DNA of 64,000 nt from Cyclobacteriaceae bacterium. Its GTDB lineage: Bacteria; Bacteroidota; Bacteroidia; Cytophagales; Cyclobacteriaceae. Shown here piece after piece: positions 9,800-22,478 of this stretch. The notes under the pieces are model-generated. The model was not told the DNA's origin, made no database searches, and saw only the letters and a list, made by a program, of their open reading frames with translations. Location: contig BPHC01000004.1 of NCBI GenBank assembly GCA_026003355.1, forward strand, positions 124,001-188,000, given 5' to 3'. The position numbers and the translations under genes were made by a program. Every line of letters starts with the position of its first letter. Within the stretch, counting starts at the first letter, position 1.

Positions 9800-11113
9800 A
9801 TGAGCAAACCCAAACCGCGCTATCTGATTATCTTTTCCGTACTGGTATTGTTGCAAATTTTAGCCCTGACAGGTAACGGGTTTCCGGAGGTTCCTTCCGG
9901 CAACGGGATAGACAAAGCCGATACGGCCTGGATGATTGTAGCTACCGCTTTTGTGTTATTTATGACGCCCGGCCTTTCGTTTTTTTACGGAGGCATGGTA
10001 AGCTACAAAAACGTAATCTCTACCATGCTGCAAAGTTTCATTGCCCTGGGCATTATAAGTTTGGTGTGGTACGCAGTGGGTTTTAGCCTGGCCTTTGGCG
10101 AAAGCATGGGCGGGCTGGTGGGCAATCCGTTTACCTACTTTTGTTTTAACGGTGTGGGGCTGGCTCCGCACGCGGCATTATCGCCCACCGTTCCCTTCCT
10201 CATATTTGCCCTGTTTCAGCTAAAGTTTGCCATTATTACACCGGCACTCATAACCGGCAGTTTTGCCGAGCGGGTAAAGTTTACTTCGTATCTGTTGTTT
10301 ATGTGTCTCTTCTCGATTTTTATCTATTCTCCGCTGGCACACTGGACGTGGCACCCCGAAGGGTTTTTGCGGAAGTGGGGTGTGCTTGATTTTGCCGGGG
10401 GTTCGGTGGTGCACATGTCGGCCGGCTTTGCCGCGCTGGCAGGGGCCTATGTACTGGGTACCCGAAAGTCGGCTTACCATCAGCCTGCCAACATTCCGTT
10501 TGTTATTCTGGGTACGGGAATGCTATGGTTTGGATGGTTTGGTTTTAATGCCGGCTCGGCACTGGGCGCCAACGAACTGGCCGTTCAGGCTTTCGCCACC
10601 ACCAACATGGCTTCTGCTTCGGCCATGATAACCTGGGTGATGTTCGATGCCCTGGTAGGCCGAAAAATTACCGCTTTGGGAGCCTGCATAGGCGCGGTGG
10701 TTGGCCTGGTGGCCATAACACCCGCTGCGGGATTTGTTTCGGCCGGTCAGAGCATCTTTATCGGATTTATGGCGGCCCTGATCAGCAACCTGGCCGTGTA
10801 CTACAAACAGCGCACATCGCTGGATGACACCCTGGACGTGTTTCCCTGCCATGGCATTGGCGGTATTGCCGGCATGTTGTTTACAGCCGTTTTTGCAAAA
10901 GATACCGGGCTGATATATGGCCAAACCACTACCTTTTTATATCACTTGCTGGCCCTGGCAATTGTAGCCTCTTTTACCTTTTTTGGTTCATTGCTTATTT
11001 ACCGCGTGGTGGCCTTAATTACCCGGCTGCGCGTTTCGGAGGAAGAAGAAAAAATAGGGCTTGACCTGAGCCAGCACTCCGAAACCGTACAGGTTACTGC
11101 CACTCCTAACTAA
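9800..11113 (+). CDS. amt: ammonium transporter (Amt family)
   Basis: This 437-residue protein has about eleven hydrophobic segments and the Amt signatures: TAWMIVATAFVLFMTPGLSFFYGGMV, the periplasmic gate and GSFAERVKF region, the twin-histidine pore residues in VVHMSAGFAAL and FPCHGIGGIAG, and WFGFNAGS. It conducts ammonium/ammonia across the inner membrane. No glnK/PII gene lies beside it, which is a departure from the common amt-glnK pair. Its stop overlaps the stop of the convergent helicase gene by 8 bases. A pair of direct repeats lies in the upstream region. Confidence 0.96.
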   Translation: MSKPKPRYLIIFSVLVLLQILALTGNGFPEVPSGNGIDKADTAWMIVATAFVLFMTPGLSFFYGGMVSYKNVISTMLQSFIALGIISLVWYAVGFSLAFGESMGGLVGNPFTYFCFNGVGLAPHAALSPTVPFLIFALFQLKFAIITPALITGSFAERVKFTSYLLFMCLFSIFIYSPLAHWTWHPEGFLRKWGVLDFAGGSVVHMSAGFAALAGAYVLGTRKSAYHQPANIPFVILGTGMLWFGWFGFNAGSALGANELAVQAFATTNMASASAMITWVMFDALVGRKITALGACIGAVVGLVAITPAAGFVSAGQSIFIGFMAALISNLAVYYKQRTSLDDTLDVFPCHGIGGIAGMLFTAVFAKDTGLIYGQTTTFLYHLLALAIVASFTFFGSLLIYRVVALITRLRVSEEEEKIGLDLSQHSETVQVTATPN

Positions 11114-14100
11114 CCTGTTCTGCCAGGCGGTGCAGAAATTTCTGAACCTGAAGGATAGCCTGTTCGCGGTTTGCCCACCAGTTCCGGCTGCTGAGCATAA
11201 GGGCAGGCCACTCTTTTTCCCTGAGCAACTGCGGAAGATGAACCCATGAACCTTTAACCGGTAATGCAGCAAAACACGTGTCATCGGTAAGCACAACACC
11301 TGCAGCGCCATTCTGCACTACCAGCAGGTCGGTGCTGGGAAAGGGCCGCAGGCAGGTCTGTATTCCGGGGGCGTGCTGCTCCAGCCATTCCTGTAGCTGC
11401 AGGGCCAGCTGGGGGCGACCGTCTTCCGCGCCATGGTTTTGCAGCAGCTCCAGGCGGCTTTCTGACGCGGCTGCCCTTCGCACATACTCCAGGTACTCCC
11501 GCAGCAACCGGGGCCCTTCGTTTTTTACGTCCTGCACCTGTAATTCGTCCGGCCACAGGCTGGCTACCACCACCACTTTGCGGCGTGCCCGTGTAACGGC
11601 AACATTCAGGCGGTTTTCACCACCGGGCATGCTCAGGCTGCCGAACTGCAGTTTTATCTTTCCGTGTTTGTCGCGTGCGTAACCCACCGAAAAAATAATA
11701 ATGTCGCGCTCATCGCCCTGAATGTTTTCGATGTTTTTTACAAACAAATGTTCAGGCCATTTACCTCCTGCTTCGGCAACATCGGCAAGTTTGTCCATAA
11801 TCAGTTCCTGTTGCGGGGCATTAAAGGTTACCACTCCCAGCGTGGCTCCTGGATCATTTTGCGAACAGGCCAGAACAAGCTCAACTACTTTATCTGCCTC
11901 TGCTTCATTAACCTGATCATGCCATACACCTTCCACTTTTATAAATTCAAACGGACTTTGTTTTTGCGCAAACGCACTTCGGTGCGGCAGCATGTCAAGC
12001 CGGTTGTTATAAAAATGCCGGTTTGAAAAGGCTATCAGCTCGGGATGCTGGCTGCGGTAATGCCCGTTAAGGTTTGCGGATGGGAGGTAGCGCATGGCCA
12101 GTTCCAGCAGCGACTCGACTTCCAGGTCGGGGTTATCGTCTTCTTCCTTCCAGCGTACCTGGTATAAATCGAAGGGCCTAAGCTGTTTGGGGTCACCGGC
12201 AACCACTACCTGTTTTCCGCGGTAAATGGCCGGAAGGCCATACTCGGCAAAGCATTGCGAAGCTTCATCGAATATAACCAGATCAAACAGCTCCTGCAGC
12301 GGAAACACGGCCGATACCGTTTCGGGCGAAGCCATCCAGCAAGGCACGAGCTGAAACAATTCATCGGCAAAAGATGCCATGAGCCTGCGAAGGGGCCATC
12401 TGCGCTTCTTTTTCGTTACCTGATGGTACAGGTCGCGGTATGTTATGCGGTTCTGCAGCCTGTTGTATTGCACATGCAACACGGTTTGCTGCCGGGCGCG
12501 CTGTACAACCACTTCGCGTGCAGCTTTGCGTTTACCCGCCACCGCCTGTTGCCATTCCTGCTGCACATGTTCCAGATGAAGGGATGAAGGCCACCGCAAA
12601 ACCGGATATTTGGTTTCGAGGTGATCGATCCAGGCCAGTTTTAAGCTGTTCAGGAATACGCGTTCGTATTCCGCTGCCTCGTGGTTTTGCAGGTTGTCGT
12701 GCAGTTTATCAATAACACTTTTTTCATGTTGCTGAAGCGATTCCCTGAGCGAATCGAAAGCACAAAGGTTGTCGAAATCCAAACGAAGCTGCTGCACCCA
12801 GCTAACCCAGAGGCCGGGCGACCGGGCCAGTGCGGCAATCTGATAAGGACTAAGATACCGCTGCCAGCTTTCTTTCTTTTGCCAGAACGTCTCCACTTCA
12901 TCAATTATATTCCACAACAACCTGATAAATTCATCGCGGGTGAATTTATCAGGATCAATGCTGTTTAGTTCGCGAATGGAACCAAACAGCAGTTTGGCCC
13001 TGAGGGCCAGTTCCTGTTTTTCAAACCATTTTTTCCAGGTTCGCAATTCGTACACTTCCGGGATATCGCGCAGCCATTTTTTCTGCCGCAGGGCTGTGAT
13101 ATGATGAATAAGATTGAGCCGGTTATCCAGGCGTTGTTCCAGTGTATAAAGGCCCTCGCGCGAATAATTCAGCCCGTTGGCCACCAGCACCCGCTTAAGG
13201 AAAAATTTCTGGTCGCTGAACAATTCCCATTTAATGAGGCGCACAATGCTTTTTCGTGCACTGAGGCGCTGCTGCAGGGCAATCTGGCACTGTCCCATCT
13301 GGTCATCGCGCAGGGTTGCCTCCACGCCCGGATGATTAAAGCAGTTAAGGCATACCCGCTGCATATTTTGCAACCAAAGCAAACTGGTTTCATCATCTTC
13401 CTCGCCTGCCATTTGCTGAAAAAACAAAAAGGTGGTTTCATCAGTAAGCAGGCCGGTAAGGTTATGCAGGCTGTCTTTTAAGTTCCACAAATTTTCTATC
13501 TCCTCATAATACAGTTCTCTTCCGGTTAACCTGCGCATTGACAAGGCCATGTTTTCCAGTTCTTCGCGTACCTGCTTAATGGTTGCCTCAATAGCGGCCC
13601 TGGCCGATAGCGGAAGTCCGGCAAATGATTTTCGTTCGCGCAGTGGGTAGTCACTTTGTTCAAACTGCCGGGCATAGGCCACATACTGACGCAGCTTTTG
13701 CAAAAAGCCATGCAGGTTATTAAAATGAAAATGATGAAACTCTTGCCGCAACGACACGTGAGGAGTTTCGGGGCTGGAAGTAAGGTACAGCTCTTTTGCA
13801 CTAAGGCCACATTCGCTGTTATCGAACAAAGCTTTTTTGTATTCTTCACACTCATCGGTAAGCTTATCGATGGTGCGGCTGAATTGCAGGAAGTGTACTG
13901 CTTCAGGCGACTCGACAAGGGCATCGGCTTTTTGGCTCACCGTGTCCACGCGGTCAATAAGCCGGGCCAGGCGTGCGTACAGCTCGGTAAGGTCGTGCCT
14001 GAAGTCGTGAATAAGCGCCGCATAATTGGCCAGGCCAGCTCCCTGCAGGCGTTCAAAGACCACATCCAGGGCCACGCGCTTTTGCGACACCACCAGCACC

Positions 14101-15110
14101 TTCCTGCCGGTGGCCATGGCATCGGCAATAATGGCGGCAATGAGTTGCGACTTACCGGTGCCGGGCGGACCGTAAACCACCAGCGACCGGCCTGATTTAC
14201 AAACTTTCAGGGCTTCTTCCTGCCAGCTGTCCAATGGAAAAGGCACATAGAGTTTCTCTTCGGTAACGGGCAGGGCACCCCCGGACCCGCCCGGGTTTTC
14301 ACCCTGTTTGAAAAAGAAATCTTCAATTTGTTGTATGCTGCCTTTCTCAATCATTTGCAGGTAGTCGGGCATAAGCTGTGAATCGGCCTGTGGAAAAATG
14401 CCCAGCACACCCTGGTGGAACATTTTCAGTCCGATGTCCTGAAATTTTTCATCGAACTCCTGACGGGAAAATGCATCGAATGGCGCGAGGTGGTCGGAAT
14501 AAATATCGGGTACAAACCGGATGTCTAATTTGTCTTTAAGCAACTGGTAGAGGCGGGTACGAAATACGGTGGTATCGGGGTCGGTATCTTCAAAGGTAAA
14601 TTCCAGCAGTTCTTCATCGGCAGGTAATTGCCGGTAGTGGTAATAAGCCAGCAGTAAGGTACGGTTAAGCACTATGCCTTCATCTTTTCGCAGATACAAC
14701 CGCCAGAATTTTTTGTCGGCCTCCAGCCGCACCGGAAAGAACAGCAGCGGTGCGCTTACCGGAACCCCTTCGGCCAGCTTACCGCGTACCATGGGCCATG
14801 CCAGGTGCAGGTCAAGAGTGCCGCGCTCTTCAAACAAAAATGCAGCAGCACGGGCCAGGCGGCGCAGTTGCCCGCTAAGTTTATTTACAAAGGGTACGCG
14901 GCTGTTGCTTACCTCGCATATTTTTATGCCTTTCCTGCCCAGCAGGGCTGCTACAATTTCAAAGGCCTCTTTAACTTCAACACCCTGCAGGGTACTCAGG
15001 TCAATAAACTGATCGGCCGAAAGCCGGAACAGCCTTAGCGACCGGTTATTGCCGCTAAGGCGCGATAGCCTGCGCAGGTACGTTTGCAATATGCCGGCCG
15101 GGTTATTCAA
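11106..15110 (-). CDS. DUF4011-type superfamily 1 helicase with degenerate C-terminal nuclease-like domain
   Basis: At 1334 residues this is a large Upf1/Dna2-type helicase. The N-terminus (LRRLSRLSGNNRSLRL) resembles the DUF4011 start. Walker A is GPPGTGKS at residues 314-321, followed by a long helical insert (about 440-900), then LVIFDEASQC (Walker B), VAGDPKQLRPF, IENIQGDERDIIIFSVG and VAVTRARRKVVVVAS. The last 100 residues resemble the Vsr-like endonuclease tail of DUF4011 proteins (ending LMLSSRNWWANREQAI) but seem to lack the acidic active site. The start is a TTG that overlaps the stop of the upstream HhH gene; no nearby ATG precedes the conserved N-terminus. A DNA repair or defence role is plausible but unproven. 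Confidence 0.87.
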   Translation of the reverse strand: MNNPAGILQTYLRRLSRLSGNNRSLRLFRLSADQFIDLSTLQGVEVKEAFEIVAALLGRKGIKICEVSNSRVPFVNKLSGQLRRLARAAAFLFEERGTLDLHLAWPMVRGKLAEGVPVSAPLLFFPVRLEADKKFWRLYLRKDEGIVLNRTLLLAYYHYRQLPADEELLEFTFEDTDPDTTVFRTRLYQLLKDKLDIRFVPDIYSDHLAPFDAFSRQEFDEKFQDIGLKMFHQGVLGIFPQADSQLMPDYLQMIEKGSIQQIEDFFFKQGENPGGSGGALPVTEEKLYVPFPLDSWQEEALKVCKSGRSLVVYGPPGTGKSQLIAAIIADAMATGRKVLVVSQKRVALDVVFERLQGAGLANYAALIHDFRHDLTELYARLARLIDRVDTVSQKADALVESPEAVHFLQFSRTIDKLTDECEEYKKALFDNSECGLSAKELYLTSSPETPHVSLRQEFHHFHFNNLHGFLQKLRQYVAYARQFEQSDYPLRERKSFAGLPLSARAAIEATIKQVREELENMALSMRRLTGRELYYEEIENLWNLKDSLHNLTGLLTDETTFLFFQQMAGEEDDETSLLWLQNMQRVCLNCFNHPGVEATLRDDQMGQCQIALQQRLSARKSIVRLIKWELFSDQKFFLKRVLVANGLNYSREGLYTLEQRLDNRLNLIHHITALRQKKWLRDIPEVYELRTWKKWFEKQELALRAKLLFGSIRELNSIDPDKFTRDEFIRLLWNIIDEVETFWQKKESWQRYLSPYQIAALARSPGLWVSWVQQLRLDFDNLCAFDSLRESLQQHEKSVIDKLHDNLQNHEAAEYERVFLNSLKLAWIDHLETKYPVLRWPSSLHLEHVQQEWQQAVAGKRKAAREVVVQRARQQTVLHVQYNRLQNRITYRDLYHQVTKKKRRWPLRRLMASFADELFQLVPCWMASPETVSAVFPLQELFDLVIFDEASQCFAEYGLPAIYRGKQVVVAGDPKQLRPFDLYQVRWKEEDDNPDLEVESLLELAMRYLPSANLNGHYRSQHPELIAFSNRHFYNNRLDMLPHRSAFAQKQSPFEFIKVEGVWHDQVNEAEADKVVELVLACSQNDPGATLGVVTFNAPQQELIMDKLADVAEAGGKWPEHLFVKNIENIQGDERDIIIFSVGYARDKHGKIKLQFGSLSMPGGENRLNVAVTRARRKVVVVASLWPDELQVQDVKNEGPRLLREYLEYVRRAAASESRLELLQNHGAEDGRPQLALQLQEWLEQHAPGIQTCLRPFPSTDLLVVQNGAAGVVLTDDTCFAALPVKGSWVHLPQLLREKEWPALMLSSRNWWANREQAILQVQKFLHRLAEQVS

Positions 15111-18440: not shown

Positions 18441-19229
18441 TCAGAAAAAGCTGGAGAAAATAAGGTTTACTACTTCAACCAGTATTAAGGCAATAATAAT
18501 CATTTCCAGGAGGTTGCTTTCGCGCTGGTTGGATATTTCCATAAAAATGCGAAGGTTTTCGTCAATGATGCGCATCATATATTCCAGTTCGCTGAAGCGC
18601 ATGCGCAGATCGAAATGCCGGATGAGCCCCTGGTGCAGGCGGTCGAGAAATTCATCATCCCACACCAGATCGGGGGCATCAAAAACATAAATATTCTCAG
18701 CTACCTCGTTTTGGGTGCTCAGGGCTTTGCCAATAAACCGCAGCATGTTTCTGCGGCTTATCTTCAGCCTTCCGCTGTTTTCCAGGTAGTATGTAAAGCC
18801 TTTTACCTCGCCCAGCAGTTGTTCGGTTACCGCATGGTAATGATCCATGGCCACCGACTGGGCCAGGTTAAACATGGCAATGCGGATCACCCGCTCATCG
18901 CAGTGGTCAAGCACCACCTCACCAAACCGGAATTGCAGCTCAGTGCCGGGTTCGATAAGCAACACATGTTCATCGCGTATCCAGGTCTGCACAGGACCGC
19001 GCTGAAAAGCCTGAACGGCCTTTACCGACCACTTTATTTCATCTTCCGAGTAGCCGCTGAATACCACCACCCCATAGTTAAAATAATACTGGTATTTGCC
19101 ACCGCTGAAAACATAAAACAACTCGGACGATGAATCGGCCTGCGGCCGGATTTCAAGAAAATTTTTAATGCCTTTTATATCCAGCTGGTTGGCTACCAGT
19201 AAAGCCGTAAGTGTAACCTTTTGCGACAT
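18441..19229 (-). CDS. RMD1/YagE family (DUF155) protein
   Basis: From the ATG at 19229 (MSQKVTLTALL) this is a 262-residue protein. It has the DUF155 features: an N-terminal beta-rich part with YYFNYGVVVFSGYSEDE, an alpha-helical middle including SRRNMLRFIGKAL and VAENIYVFDAPDLVWDDE, and a C-terminal transmembrane helix (LLEMIIIALILVEVVNLIF). The family is found in mitochondria (RMD1) and bacteria; its biochemical role is unknown. An extended frame upstream to 19313 lacks family similarity. It precedes the GCS2 ligase gene by 3 bases. Confidence 0.86.
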   Translation of the reverse strand: MSQKVTLTALLVANQLDIKGIKNFLEIRPQADSSSELFYVFSGGKYQYYFNYGVVVFSGYSEDEIKWSVKAVQAFQRGPVQTWIRDEHVLLIEPGTELQFRFGEVVLDHCDERVIRIAMFNLAQSVAMDHYHAVTEQLLGEVKGFTYYLENSGRLKISRRNMLRFIGKALSTQNEVAENIYVFDAPDLVWDDEFLDRLHQGLIRHFDLRMRFSELEYMMRIIDENLRIFMEISNQRESNLLEMIIIALILVEVVNLIFSSFF

Positions 19230-19311
19230 ACCTGTTTGCTTAAAGTTAAAACAAGTAGCGTAAAAACATGGGCTTATTTTTACATATTTGCAGCCATAAA
19301 AACATACACGC

Positions 19312-20076
19312 ATGCTTCGCCCGGTATTGCTCCTGCTTTTGTCCTCGGTATGGTTTCAACTATTTGCCTGGGGGCCTACCGGCCATCGCGTTACCGGCCA
19401 CATTGCCCAAAAGTACCTGAATAAAAAAGCAAAAAAAGCCCTGCACCGCATATTGGGTGGCGAATCGCTGGCTATGGTAAGTACCTGGATGGATGAAGTT
19501 CGTTCCGATTCGGCTTATGACTACATGGCCGACTGGCATTGGGTGACCATCCCCGACGGACAAACCTATGAGCAGGCCGAAAAAAACCCCAATGGCGACA
19601 TCATTATGACCATTGAGCGGATTATTGAGGAGTTAAAAACGCATAAGCTAACCCCCCGCCAGGAAGCCGAGCGCATTAAAATACTGGTTCACCTGGTGGG
19701 CGACCTGCACCAGCCTCTTCATGTCGGGCGCGGCAACGACCGGGGCGGCAACGATATACGCGTAATGTGGTTTCGTGCCGAAAGTAACCTGCACAGGGTG
19801 TGGGACAGCGACATGATTGACGATACCCGGCTAAGCTACACCGAACTGGCCGAGTCGCTGCTGCTGCCATCTGACTCGCTGCGCAAAGCCTGGCAAAGCA
19901 CTTCTGTACGCCAATGGGCTTACGAAAGCATGGCCTTCCGCAAACAGGTTTACGACACCGGCAACAGCCGGCTGGGGTATGCCTATTCCTATAAATATTT
20001 TCATATTGTACGCCAGCGCCTGCTTCAGGCCGGCATTCGCCTGGCCGGCATTCTGAATGAAGTTTACGGCCATTAA
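19312..20076 (+). CDS. secreted S1/P1 nuclease
   Basis: The 254-residue protein has a signal peptide that would cleave before Trp20 (FQLFA then WGPTGHRVTGHIA), leaving the N-terminal tryptophan that binds zinc in S1/P1 nucleases. Other zinc ligands are visible: STWMDEVRSD, ADWHWVTIP, HLVGDLHQPLHVG and NLHRVWDSDMI. These enzymes degrade single-stranded DNA and RNA and remove 3' phosphates outside the cell or in the periplasm. It is divergent from the RMD1-like gene, with 82 bases between the starts. Confidence 0.95.
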   Translation: MLRPVLLLLLSSVWFQLFAWGPTGHRVTGHIAQKYLNKKAKKALHRILGGESLAMVSTWMDEVRSDSAYDYMADWHWVTIPDGQTYEQAEKNPNGDIIMTIERIIEELKTHKLTPRQEAERIKILVHLVGDLHQPLHVGRGNDRGGNDIRVMWFRAESNLHRVWDSDMIDDTRLSYTELAESLLLPSDSLRKAWQSTSVRQWAYESMAFRKQVYDTGNSRLGYAYSYKYFHIVRQRLLQAGIRLAGILNEVYGH

Positions 20077-20223: not shown

Positions 20224-20676
20224 ATGGAACACCCCATTGAGCATTATTACAAACTCTTTGAAGAGGTTCTAACCGAATACAAAGTAGATCCCGCTGCTGC
20301 GCGCGGAAAGCAACCCGGCCAGTGGAACCTTGTGCTGGGCTCGGCCAGTGTATGGGTAGATATCTTCCAGTCGAAAGATGCACAGGGTAACCTTGCCAAT
20401 TACGGCTACCTTCAGGTAATGGCACCGGTATGCGATGTACCCGTAAACAACCAGCATTTGTTTACCAAAGAATTACTTGAAATAAACCATGGCCTGTATG
20501 GCGTAGCCTTTACCATATTTAAGGAAAGGGCCTATATTAAAGCCATACGCGAACTGCAGGGATTGGATAAGTCGGAAATAAAAAGCACGCTTGACCGCGT
20601 GGGCTTTTATGCCGATGATTTTGACGATAAGCTTAAGGCTCGGTATTTTGGTTTTGCAGATGGAAGCCGCGGTTAG
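20224..20676 (+). CDS. YbjN domain-containing protein
   Basis: The 150-residue protein looks like a cytoplasmic YbjN/type III secretion chaperone-like fold: an N-terminal helix, a beta-rich centre (GQWNLVLGSASVWVDIF, GYLQVMAPVCDVP) and the LFTKELLEINHGLYGVAFTIFKERAYIKAIRELQGLD segment split over a strand and helix. Function is unknown; relatives bind proteins as chaperones. It is convergent with the AAA+ gene, the stops lying 8 bases apart. The 147 bases upstream hold no gene and no clear promoter. Confidence 0.8.
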   Translation: MEHPIEHYYKLFEEVLTEYKVDPAAARGKQPGQWNLVLGSASVWVDIFQSKDAQGNLANYGYLQVMAPVCDVPVNNQHLFTKELLEINHGLYGVAFTIFKERAYIKAIRELQGLDKSEIKSTLDRVGFYADDFDDKLKARYFGFADGSRG

Positions 20677-20684
20677 TAAATAAA

Positions 20685-22478
20685 CTATTCGTTACCCAAA
20701 TTAAAACCCAGGCGCCTCCGCTTCAGGCTTGCGTCTTTTATTTCAAACTCCGCCACATCGTCCAGCATAATGGTACGCAGCATGTCGGCTGTGCGGTCTT
20801 CTTTTTTCATGGCCGCTAACCGAAGGTGCTGGTTTTTAACTGCTTCGGCAGCCACCTGCCTTACCGTGCGCGCATTGCCAAAGTGTTTGTCGCGTATGTT
20901 GTACAGGTAGGCAAAATAATTTTGCAGGTGCCGGGCGGCTGCTTCATCGGGCTGTACTTCTTCCTTTTTAAAAAAAGACATCACGATTGTAAACATTTCT
21001 TCGGGGGTGTAATCTTCGAACTGGTAATACTTGTCGAACCTGGACCGCAGGCCGGGGTTAGACTCAATAAAGTCAACCATATTATCGGTATAACCGGCCA
21101 CAATTACACCAAACTTGCCGCGGAAATCTTCCATGCGCTTGAGCAAAACCTGAATGGCCTCTGCCCCGAAGTCGTGCTGCCCACCGCGTTCGTTGGCCAG
21201 CGAATAAGCCTCGTCAATAAACAATATGCCCCCCATGGCCTCTTCAATCTTCTCTGCGGTTTTAATGGCGGTTTGCCCCACATAGCCGGCCACCAGCGCC
21301 TGGCGGTCTACCTCAACCAGATGTCCTTTTTCCAGAATGCCCAGCCCTTTGTAAATACGCGAAAGGATGCGGGCCACAGTGGTTTTTCCGGTACCGGGGT
21401 TGCCCGTAAACACCGAGTGAAGGGAAAAGCGGTTTAGTACATCTTTGCCGGTTTCCTGATAAAACTGTACCAGTTTTACCATTTCGTTAACCTCCTTTTT
21501 TACCGAGGTTAATCCCGTTAGGGCATTCAGTTCGTTGAGGCTTTCCTGTAATATTTCCTCCCGGCTTTTGCCCGCAGTGGAATCCAGTGAGGCGAGCGAC
21601 TGCGCCACGCGGGTTACTTCGGTGAGCACCACTGCATTGCCCTCAACAGCCTGTTCGCCTACCTGAAAGGCCACCGTGGCAATGAGGCTGTCCATAAAAA
21701 CCACTTCGAGGGTATACACATCGCTTTTCCAGGAGCCTGGTGTATCGTTTCCCCAAGAGGGATAAACATAAAAAAGCTGCCCGGCCGTATGGGCCGGAAC
21801 GTGGATAAGCCGGGTGCTGCGCCCTTTCAGGTGGCCGGCATCATCGCAATAATTAAAAAACAATTCGGCATAGTAGCCGGTGTTGCTTTTGTTTTTAAAG
21901 CAAAACTCTCCCCAGATGTAACGGGTATCATTGGCGCTGAATTTGGTAAGATATTTCTTAGTAGCTGCGCTGTAGGCCGAAGCATCGCCTTCAAAGAGCT
22001 TTATGTGCTGCACTTCAAAAAATTTGTTCTCACCGGGTGCTGACGGCCCAAGGTCTTCCACATAAAATTTCGCATCGCCAATAAGTACATCATCCAGGTA
22101 TGCTTCCCATAGGTAATTGCCGCGTATCCAGTAGGCACCCGGCTCGGCATTGCCCCAGGAATCGCGTACGTAAACAATATTTTCGTCTTTGGTAATCTTT
22201 CGCTGCTGGGTAAGGCTGCACAGCTCCTGCCTGCCTGCCTGGGTAAGAAAGTAGCACTTCAGGGTTACGTTTGCTTCCCAGTCGGTTTCATCAAAAAGTT
22301 TGTTAAAAAACGAAAGCTCAACGCGCATGTAGGTGGTTTCGTATCTGTCGTAAACCTGGCGATATTTTTTGGTGCCATCGGCCAGCCAGTCGTCAGAGGC
22401 GTGCACCTTCAGGGCTCTGAATTTATATCGGGTTTCGGAAGACTTTCCGGCATCGGGAGAATTTTGTTCCGGAGGCAT
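20685..22478 (-). CDS. CbbX/SpoVK-like AAA+ ATPase with duplicated N-terminal domain
   Basis: The 597-residue protein has a C-terminal AAA+ module: linker LNALTGLTSVKKEVNEM, Walker A GNPGTGKTT at 359-367, pore-region LVEVDRQALVAGYVGQTA, Walker B GILFIDEAYSLA and sensor/arginine region NPGLRSRFDKYYQFEDY. This is the CbbX/SpoVK clade, which remodels protein partners. The first 280 residues hold two copies of a beta-rich domain: TKKY at 36-39 and 173-176, SWGN at 107-110 and 241-244, and LIGDAKFYVED versus LIATVAFQVGE at the ends. I do not know this N-terminal domain. Starts at ATG; the substrate is unknown. Confidence 0.86.
   Translation of the reverse strand: MPPEQNSPDAGKSSETRYKFRALKVHASDDWLADGTKKYRQVYDRYETTYMRVELSFFNKLFDETDWEANVTLKCYFLTQAGRQELCSLTQQRKITKDENIVYVRDSWGNAEPGAYWIRGNYLWEAYLDDVLIGDAKFYVEDLGPSAPGENKFFEVQHIKLFEGDASAYSAATKKYLTKFSANDTRYIWGEFCFKNKSNTGYYAELFFNYCDDAGHLKGRSTRLIHVPAHTAGQLFYVYPSWGNDTPGSWKSDVYTLEVVFMDSLIATVAFQVGEQAVEGNAVVLTEVTRVAQSLASLDSTAGKSREEILQESLNELNALTGLTSVKKEVNEMVKLVQFYQETGKDVLNRFSLHSVFTGNPGTGKTTVARILSRIYKGLGILEKGHLVEVDRQALVAGYVGQTAIKTAEKIEEAMGGILFIDEAYSLANERGGQHDFGAEAIQVLLKRMEDFRGKFGVIVAGYTDNMVDFIESNPGLRSRFDKYYQFEDYTPEEMFTIVMSFFKKEEVQPDEAAARHLQNYFAYLYNIRDKHFGNARTVRQVAAEAVKNQHLRLAAMKKEDRTADMLRTIMLDDVAEFEIKDASLKRRRLGFNLGNE

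Follow-up and report, generated by a model that had tools for sequence, protein, structure and literature searches.

SpoVK, CbbX and EccA constitute one clade of dedicated AAA+ chaperones, and in the account of this clade by Delerue et al. (PMC10659427) their N-terminal domains are exchangeable and probably recruit the client. Two members are described there as serving one enzyme each, namely MurG in the case of SpoVK and RuBisCO in that of CbbX; CbbX is stimulated by RuBP via its C-terminal bundle, and the sections of that paper that deal with the clade know of no association with a peptidase (PMC10659427). One hypothesis holds that EccA takes apart the EspG-client complex and recycles EspG, and the passage concerned calls the importance of EccA for secretion controversial (PMC10597459); the relevant part of another paper states that the function of EccA is unknown (PMC11217815). 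For a second group of proteins that matters here, AmyR/YbjN, the pertinent part of the literature describes an action via protein-protein interactions and gives no evidence for a role in secretion (PMC5398634), and the superfamily that includes YbjN-like proteins has been described, in the section devoted to it, as one of peptide-binding chaperones (PMC9503650).

Here, we describe an ATPase gene and a neighboring YbjN-like gene in a window of 64,000 nt, that is, the whole stretch of Cyclobacteriaceae DNA that was analyzed. Like the members of the SpoVK/CbbX/EccA clade as they are portrayed in the source cited above, the window protein combines an AAA+ core and AAA_lid_6 with the GY signature at sensor 1 and the FGNAR motif, lacks a peptidase, and differs from its relatives in the N-terminal domain, which is variable in the clade (PMC10659427). 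Unlike SpoVK, CbbX and EccA, it stays below all three of the respective NCBIfam cut-offs and carries a tandem Ig-like head; unlike the situation with CbbX, its genome lacks RuBisCO, and most of the relatives that we fetched have two AAA+ rings. With EccA and EspG of type VII secretion, the pair would share a motor of the same clade and a small chaperone that binds clients, a likeness in logic only: EccA has a TPR head (PMC10659427) and belongs to a secretion locus, whereas the window motor has an Ig-like head, and the putative partner has the predicted fold of YbjN and type III chaperones. A literature search found nothing on this family in Bacteroidota. The new elements are a conserved Ig-like head that the libraries searched fail to recognize and a candidate partner, with a mechanism that would be drawn by analogy only, and the results suggest that motor and chaperone form an undescribed pair.

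The AAA+ module and the predicted Ig-like head

The ATPase gene (ORF at 20685..22478, minus strand) encodes 597 amino acids, consisting of the head and a single AAA+ module. The latter, delimited by Pfam and motif positions, spans residues 315-575 (20754..21536, minus strand), with PF00004 at residues 356-488 and AAA_lid_6 at residues 512-575. All six ATPase motifs are intact in the window protein; they start at residues 359 (Walker A), 398 (pore loop, GYVGQT), 419 (Walker B, LFIDEA), 461 (AGY), 474 (NPGLRSRF) and 533 (FGNAR, which we take to be sensor 2, its arginine presumably being the sensor-2 Arg). All 14 one-ring proteins that were counted, among them the window protein, have the same six motifs. 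In the two-ring proteins, Walker A is present in 42/42 first and 42/42 second rings, and four other motifs are found less consistently in the second rings than in the one-ring proteins (pore loop in 34, FIDEA in 39, NPGLxSR in 39 and FGNA[RK] in 30 of the 42). AGY was found in 14/14 one-ring, 42/42 D1 and 42/42 D2 modules, a count that is loose by itself because the window module has, besides the AGY at 461-463, a second one within the pore loop. Two arginine finger candidates are present in NPGLRSRF, R478, which fits the expected spacing but gives way to Lys in most second rings, and R480, which is kept.

Among the NCBIfam families, the best named relatives of the window ATPase are SpoVK, EccA and CbbX, with scores of 253, 221 and 204 bits that miss the respective cut-offs of 423 (TIGR02881), 467 (TIGR03922) and 459 bits (TIGR02880). 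The closest relatives in the PDB are CbbX (3syk, E 1e-49) and EccA1 (9lur, E 6e-49). With an AAA_lid_6 core, these nearest relatives and a GY at sensor 1, the window protein is, by sequence, an AAA+ ATPase of the SpoVK/CbbX/EccA clade, in agreement with its preliminary description as a CbbX/SpoVK-type AAA+ protein. That description had also assumed that such proteins usually have short or TPR-like N-termini, a premise that is too narrow in the light of what Delerue et al. say of these domains (PMC10659427). RuBisCO (PF00016) was absent from the window's genome, the one genome searched, which is 95% complete.

The head had been described as a duplicated, unrecognized double beta-sandwich, with residues 30-142 and 168-275 as clear repeats, and this description held up. 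The motifs shared by the repeats are found at the positions given, namely TKKY at 36 and 173, SWGN at 107 and 241, LIGDAKFYVED from 132 and LIATVAFQVGE from 265. The repeats are 31% identical over 108 columns (blastp E 6e-6), and their local alignment score of 73 was reached in none of 2000 shuffles (mean 28.4, s.d. 4.8, maximum 59). A profile-profile comparison of the two repeats, based on 56 proteins, yielded a probability of 98.5 and an E value of 3.5e-15 over 121 columns. The underlying head alignment (A1) comprised 56 heads, one of them the window's, and excluded L062 (seemingly the contig of L066), L104 (no AAA+) as well as L079, L080 and L082 (contig edge). An AlphaFold2 model of the head, built from this alignment, reached a mean pLDDT of 91 and a pTM of 0.84. 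In the model, repeat 1 consists of strands at residues 18-27, 42-44, 50-59, 67-79, 82-95, 101-109, 120-128 and 131-141, and repeat 2 of strands at 154-164, 176-181, 187-196, 202-211, 217-227, 235-243 (two short pieces), 253-261 and 264-274. The modelled strand order is identical in both repeats, which share one fold. According to this model, the fold searches and the profile alignment, both repeats are predicted to be Ig-like (or FnIII-like) beta-sandwiches, with domain 1 at residues 18-142 (22053..22427, minus strand) and domain 2 at residues 154-277 (21648..22019, minus strand).

The fold searches returned generic Ig-like matches and, among them, no known domain that would bring a known function with it. 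RbmA, which we take to be a tandem FnIII protein, came first in Foldseek (E 1.9e-8). Single head domains aligned with AlkC (Z 11.0, 3.0 A, 109 residues) and with the carbohydrate-binding domain of Wzt (Z 10.1, 2.8 A, 108 residues), and both repeats aligned with GH2 beta-mannosidase (repeat 1, Z 10.0, 2.6 A, 98 residues; repeat 2, Z 10.1, 2.4 A, 102 residues), the aligned part of the chains beginning at residue 219/220 and ending at differing positions (330 and 450). The likeness to RbmA, AlkC, GH2 and Wzt pertains to the single domain; the head has no sequence match in the PDB at E 10 or better, and over the whole head the TM score with RbmA is just 0.24-0.32. The list of fold-search matches contained no non-Ig folds, an absence that is no proof. 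Because the Ig-like structural neighbors have many unrelated functions, the fold assigns no function to the head. Neither did the sequence libraries: the window head matched nothing in Pfam at E 0.1 and nothing in PHROGs at 0.01, and none of the Pfam matches of the 56 heads was convincing (the best, with E 0.006, came from a single member; DUF6941 matched 5/56, with E 0.01 at best). The head is conserved, repeat 1 more so than repeat 2, with mean modal fractions of 0.60 in repeat 1 and 0.53 in repeat 2 vs. 0.70 in the AAA+ module (55 modules). Residues of repeat 1 conserved in at least 90% include K37, Y39, R40, E47, E54, N59 and W67, and further R105, W108, G109, W117, G120 and W124.

Distribution and architectures of the family

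Searches for the head, the YbjN-like gene, the control gene and the protease fusions (see below) were run against 295 genomes of the class, taken as one set on the basis of handles and counts. The head-only query matched in 67 of the 295, the window's genome included; Ig-headed ATPases are a widespread family in Bacteroidota. Among the fetched regions, 42 encode proteins of about 865-910 aa with two AAA+ modules, and 14 encode proteins with one, one of them a split gene. In a tree of 105 AAA+ modules, the one-ring form is monophyletic (support 1.0) and nested among the second rings (0.953), and the first rings of the two-ring proteins form their own clade (0.896); the alignment left out L062, L079, L082 and L104, and L080 was counted apart. 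Since the one-ring modules are nested within the second rings, the clade of the window protein must have lost the first AAA+ ring. In the split gene (L072:7687-9482, genome G001), the head (315 aa) and the AAA+ module (290 aa) are two ORFs that overlap by 25 nt, with a frame change in the linker that joins the head to the motor; this may reflect an error, decay or a real split. Another genome (G014) encodes, beside the Ig-headed ATPase, a second SpoVK-clade ATPase of 507 aa (L084:7425-8948), in which the Ig profile found no match at E 10.

A search with the profile of a single repeat (A2) extended the module to a wider set of proteins, with matches in 43 of the 395 phylum genomes searched. Seven proteins of about 1300 aa from this search, inspected by eye over part of their length, have a TPR-like start and one Ig module followed by AAA+ modules. 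One Ig module is combined with TPR and three AAA+ modules in a protein from Ignavibacteriales (L064), and two Ig modules with three AAA+ modules in a protein of 1145 aa (L080). In genome G022, a caspase domain (PF00656, E 1.9e-42) is followed by four Ig modules, with a signal-peptide-like start (L079:2303-4609). Secreted-looking proteins of 278 aa consist solely of two Ig modules (L133:1426-2259, L134:1426-2259 and L135:40-873), and another of 661 aa also carries the module (L137). Genome G121 encodes a full form of 881 aa (L098) as well as a head-only ORF of 367 aa (L104:7768-8871), in which a charged C-terminal extension, helix-like by eye, replaces the AAA+ module and which has no Pfam match at 0.01. 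We rejected the interpretation of L104 as a broken copy, as the ORF is open and the reported stop precedes its start. The presence of the Ig module in TPR, caspase, secreted-looking and ATPase-free proteins indicates a reusable domain that is not peculiar to this ATPase.

The YbjN-like gene and its association with the ATPase

The convergent YbjN-like gene pointed out in the preliminary description (20224..20676, plus strand, 150 aa) ends 8 nt from the ATPase gene and is, on the grounds of fold, co-occurrence and adjacency, its probable partner. A model of the protein, based on an alignment of 31 sequences (A4), had a pLDDT of 91, and the fold search matched 2plg (Tll0839, Z 16.2), ExsC (14.6), CesT (14.1), YbjN (6vu7, 11.6) and AmyR (5fr7, 11.2). 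The profile of the protein matched 2plg as well (E 1e-13); a literature search for Tll0839 by name found no paper. Over nearly its whole length, the protein is therefore predicted to fold like the class I chaperones of type III secretion and like YbjN/TY-Chap1 (Z 11-16); unlike members of the TY-Chap1 and YbjN families, it remains below both Pfam gathering scores (22.7 vs. 27 and 15.9 vs. 22, respectively).

Among 39 relatives, the ATPase was found in 14 at E <1e-100; 35 had any match, and in the other 21 these were generic AAA+ matches or, in G022, module matches. The YbjN-like gene is present in 15 relatives, the same 14 and, with a weak match (E 4.6e-6), G038, that is, in 14/14 with the ATPase vs. 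one weak case among the 25 without it (p 1e-9). Within the genus of the window's genome, 11 genomes have both genes and six have neither. The two genes are far apart on one contig in G001, G010 and G028 and on different contigs in G007, G011, G025 and G027.

In the class sample, the YbjN-like profile found the gene in 54/295 genomes, comprising 42 of the 67 with the head and 12 of the 228 others (25 with the head only, 216 with neither; odds ratio 30, Fisher p 9e-23). Counted per genus, both are present in 25, the head only in 20, the partner only in six and neither in 104 (p 2e-11). As a control, we used a neighboring gene that is patchy in the class (16/295), which encodes a DUF155 protein of the RMND1/Sif2 family (18441-19313, minus strand, E 4e-28). 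It occurs in 5/67 head genomes vs. 11/228 others (p 0.37); one control gene is few, and kinship among the genomes makes all these p-values overstate independence. The free YbjN-like gene was not detected in 25 of the 67 head genomes, among them all 10 found in family f25, three of family f28 and two of family f29, and a richer YbjN profile still found no partner in these three families. Forty-six further searches covered genomes chosen for carrying the Ig module, 10 of them from the class (eight already counted); five matched the YbjN-like profile, four in fused form and one marginally. Of the 36 from other classes, where the module is not always part of an ATPase, 33 had no YbjN-like match, one was marginal and two were fused. 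The YbjN-like gene follows the ATPase phyletically, and this link is strong but incomplete and not universal.

Part of the YbjN-like domains are fused to a protease. In proteins of about 360-415 aa, a Trypsin_2 domain and a zinc ribbon are combined with the YbjN-like domain, without a signal peptide as judged by eye. Such fusions, cytosolic in appearance, were seen at L224-L227 and L229-L236 (match regions plus upstream sequence). The profile of ribbon plus chaperone matched in 27/295 class genomes, 13 of which have the whole fused form, defined as a match from the first residues in frames of 365-415 aa. Trypsin_2 was found in 8/8 of these 13 that were checked and in 3/3 others scanned; the serine motif GxSGG is missing in L227 and L235. 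The head is present in 9 of the 13 genomes with the whole fusion (p 3e-4), and two genomes of f76 have fusion and head without a free chaperone. No match of the fused form was found in the window's genome. With fusions included, any YbjN-like domain is present in 46/67 head genomes vs. 14/228 others, a tally combined by hand from several profile searches.

The gene neighborhood was compared in 63 regions (62 fetched plus the window), 61 of which have the head gene. The most common neighbor family is the YbjN-like gene, with nine regions; the next families, which include a glycosyltransferase and an RsmG-type gene common to families f66 and f73, occur in at most five. The ATPase and YbjN-like genes are adjacent or one gene apart in 9/61 regions, corresponding to eight distinct genomes, as L062 and L066 are seemingly one contig. 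These close pairs are all on the window's side of the family. Tail-to-tail pairs, 2 to 55 nt apart, are found in the window, L062/L066, L063, L065 and L081, and in L067-L069 one gene intervenes, which in L067, where it was scanned, encodes an amidohydrolase. As the flanks in L063 and L067-L069 are unlike those of the window, the pair has survived rearrangements in these regions. Elsewhere, the YbjN-like gene is a lone gene: in the 18 regions, out of 20, where it could be located, no neighbor family exceeds five. Neither a broadly conserved operon nor a client was found among the neighbors examined, and operon logic was rejected, as the head gene has no fixed neighbors across the 61 regions. 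Among 20 neighbor proteins scanned, those with matches were mostly of housekeeping or envelope genes of mixed kinds. A PorV gene of type IX secretion (L094:5028-6203) lies 367 nt downstream of an ATPase gene and a PorP/SprF gene (L086:7023-7937) 11 nt upstream of another, both in the same direction as the ATPase. The window itself also encodes a helicase-like protein of 1334 aa (11106-15110, minus strand), which matches the PADLOC family PDC-S37, a defence candidate, with E 3.7e-140 and Hhe with E 1.4e-69. An origin from mobile elements was rejected, as the head was unmatched in plasmids, phages and viral contigs, at the sensitivity of each tool, and in PHROGs.

Possible modes of action and their meaning

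We give somewhat less than an even chance to the reading that we prefer, in which the motor remodels proteins without proteolysis and uses its Ig head to recruit either a client or a complex of client and chaperone, in the manner proposed for EccA with EspG. Six copies of the ATPase would form a ring, as in CbbX, with two Ig-like domains per copy on the N-terminal side that would recruit the client. In many Bacteroidota lineages, the recruited client may be held by the YbjN/TY-type chaperone. ATP hydrolysis would push the pore loop (GYVGQT, with the aromatic residue Tyr399) against a part of the client that lies exposed, so that a dead-end or chaperone-bound complex would be broken up and the client freed or reshaped. 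As no peptidase domain is attached, the default outcome would, from what is known of the clade, be remodelling rather than degradation. By analogy, we infer a contact between the ATPase and the chaperone. It is plausible that, as had been suggested, the head serves as the adaptor of one specific client, and the YbjN-like protein, which had been proposed to belong to the same system, probably does so, given its predicted chaperone fold and a phyletic pattern that tracks the ATPase.

Several other readings would accommodate part of these observations. The ATPase could be a dedicated assembly or activation chaperone of one enzyme that is bound by the Ig head, with the YbjN-like gene independently present in the same lineages. 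The single-enzyme precedents of SpoVK with MurG and CbbX with RuBisCO, in the account cited at the outset (PMC10659427), and the retention of the head without a YbjN-like gene in f25, f28 and f29 are in line with this, as is a co-directional glycosyltransferase gene that in five regions lies downstream of the ATPase and recalls MurG (family c8 adjoins the ATPase in L112, L114, L118 and L120, L112 having been scanned as PF00535; L108 has PF13692). However, the other scanned neighbors are mixed (aldolase, release factor, PorV, PorP/SprF, phosphoesterase), the window's genome has no RuBisCO, and this reading alone does not explain the 14/14 co-occurrence in relatives, so that we consider it somewhat unlikely. 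Another reading is quality control, in which the chaperone would mark misfolded cytosolic proteins, the motor would extract them and the fused trypsin-like protease would degrade them in some lineages. The fusions of Trypsin_2, zinc ribbon and YbjN-like domain, their association with the head and the two f76 genomes without a free chaperone speak for it, but four of the 13 fusion genomes lack the head, two proteins lack GxSGG, the window's genome has no matched fusion and the clade, as far as the cited part of its description goes, has no known peptidase association (PMC10659427), which together make this reading unlikely.

Binding of a carbohydrate or a small ligand by the Ig domains might instead switch the ATPase on. 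The structural neighbors include GH2 domains as well as the carbohydrate-binding domain of Wzt (Z ~10), and RuBP stimulates CbbX, though via the C-terminal bundle according to the section concerned (PMC10659427); as the Ig-like fold is generic and sandwiches of many functions score alike, such a switch appears quite improbable. Least of all do we expect an anti-phage or other conflict gene, which would be a very unlikely outcome in spite of the Ig modules fused to a caspase in G022, a weak match to IetA (E 7.6e-10) and the helicase-like candidate defence protein encoded at a distance of about 5.6 kb. The IetA match is limited to the common AAA+ core (residues 324-469), the cut-off of the IteA/IetA family (NCBIfam NF042959) is missed with 30 vs. 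510 bits, the head has no match on plasmid, phage and viral records or in PHROGs, and it has no fixed neighbors.

Returning to the remodelling motor, its fullest form would be a hitherto undescribed system by which Bacteroidota remodel proteins in the cytosol, in which an Ig-headed motor of the SpoVK clade is fed or steered by a type-III-chaperone-like protein outside secretion systems, and to which some lineages add a trypsin-like protease in fusion with that chaperone domain; we regard this as a possible but rather doubtful generalization. If it is true, the logic of motor and chaperone proposed for EccA and EspG would be general, with exchangeable heads (TPR, Ig) and exchangeable chaperone folds. 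A conserved ATP-driven motor is carried by 67 of the 295 class genomes, and no function for it was found in the literature searched. Should motor and chaperone really form a pair, this would reveal how a SpoVK-clade motor selects its clients, and proteins of the YbjN type would gain a motor to work with.
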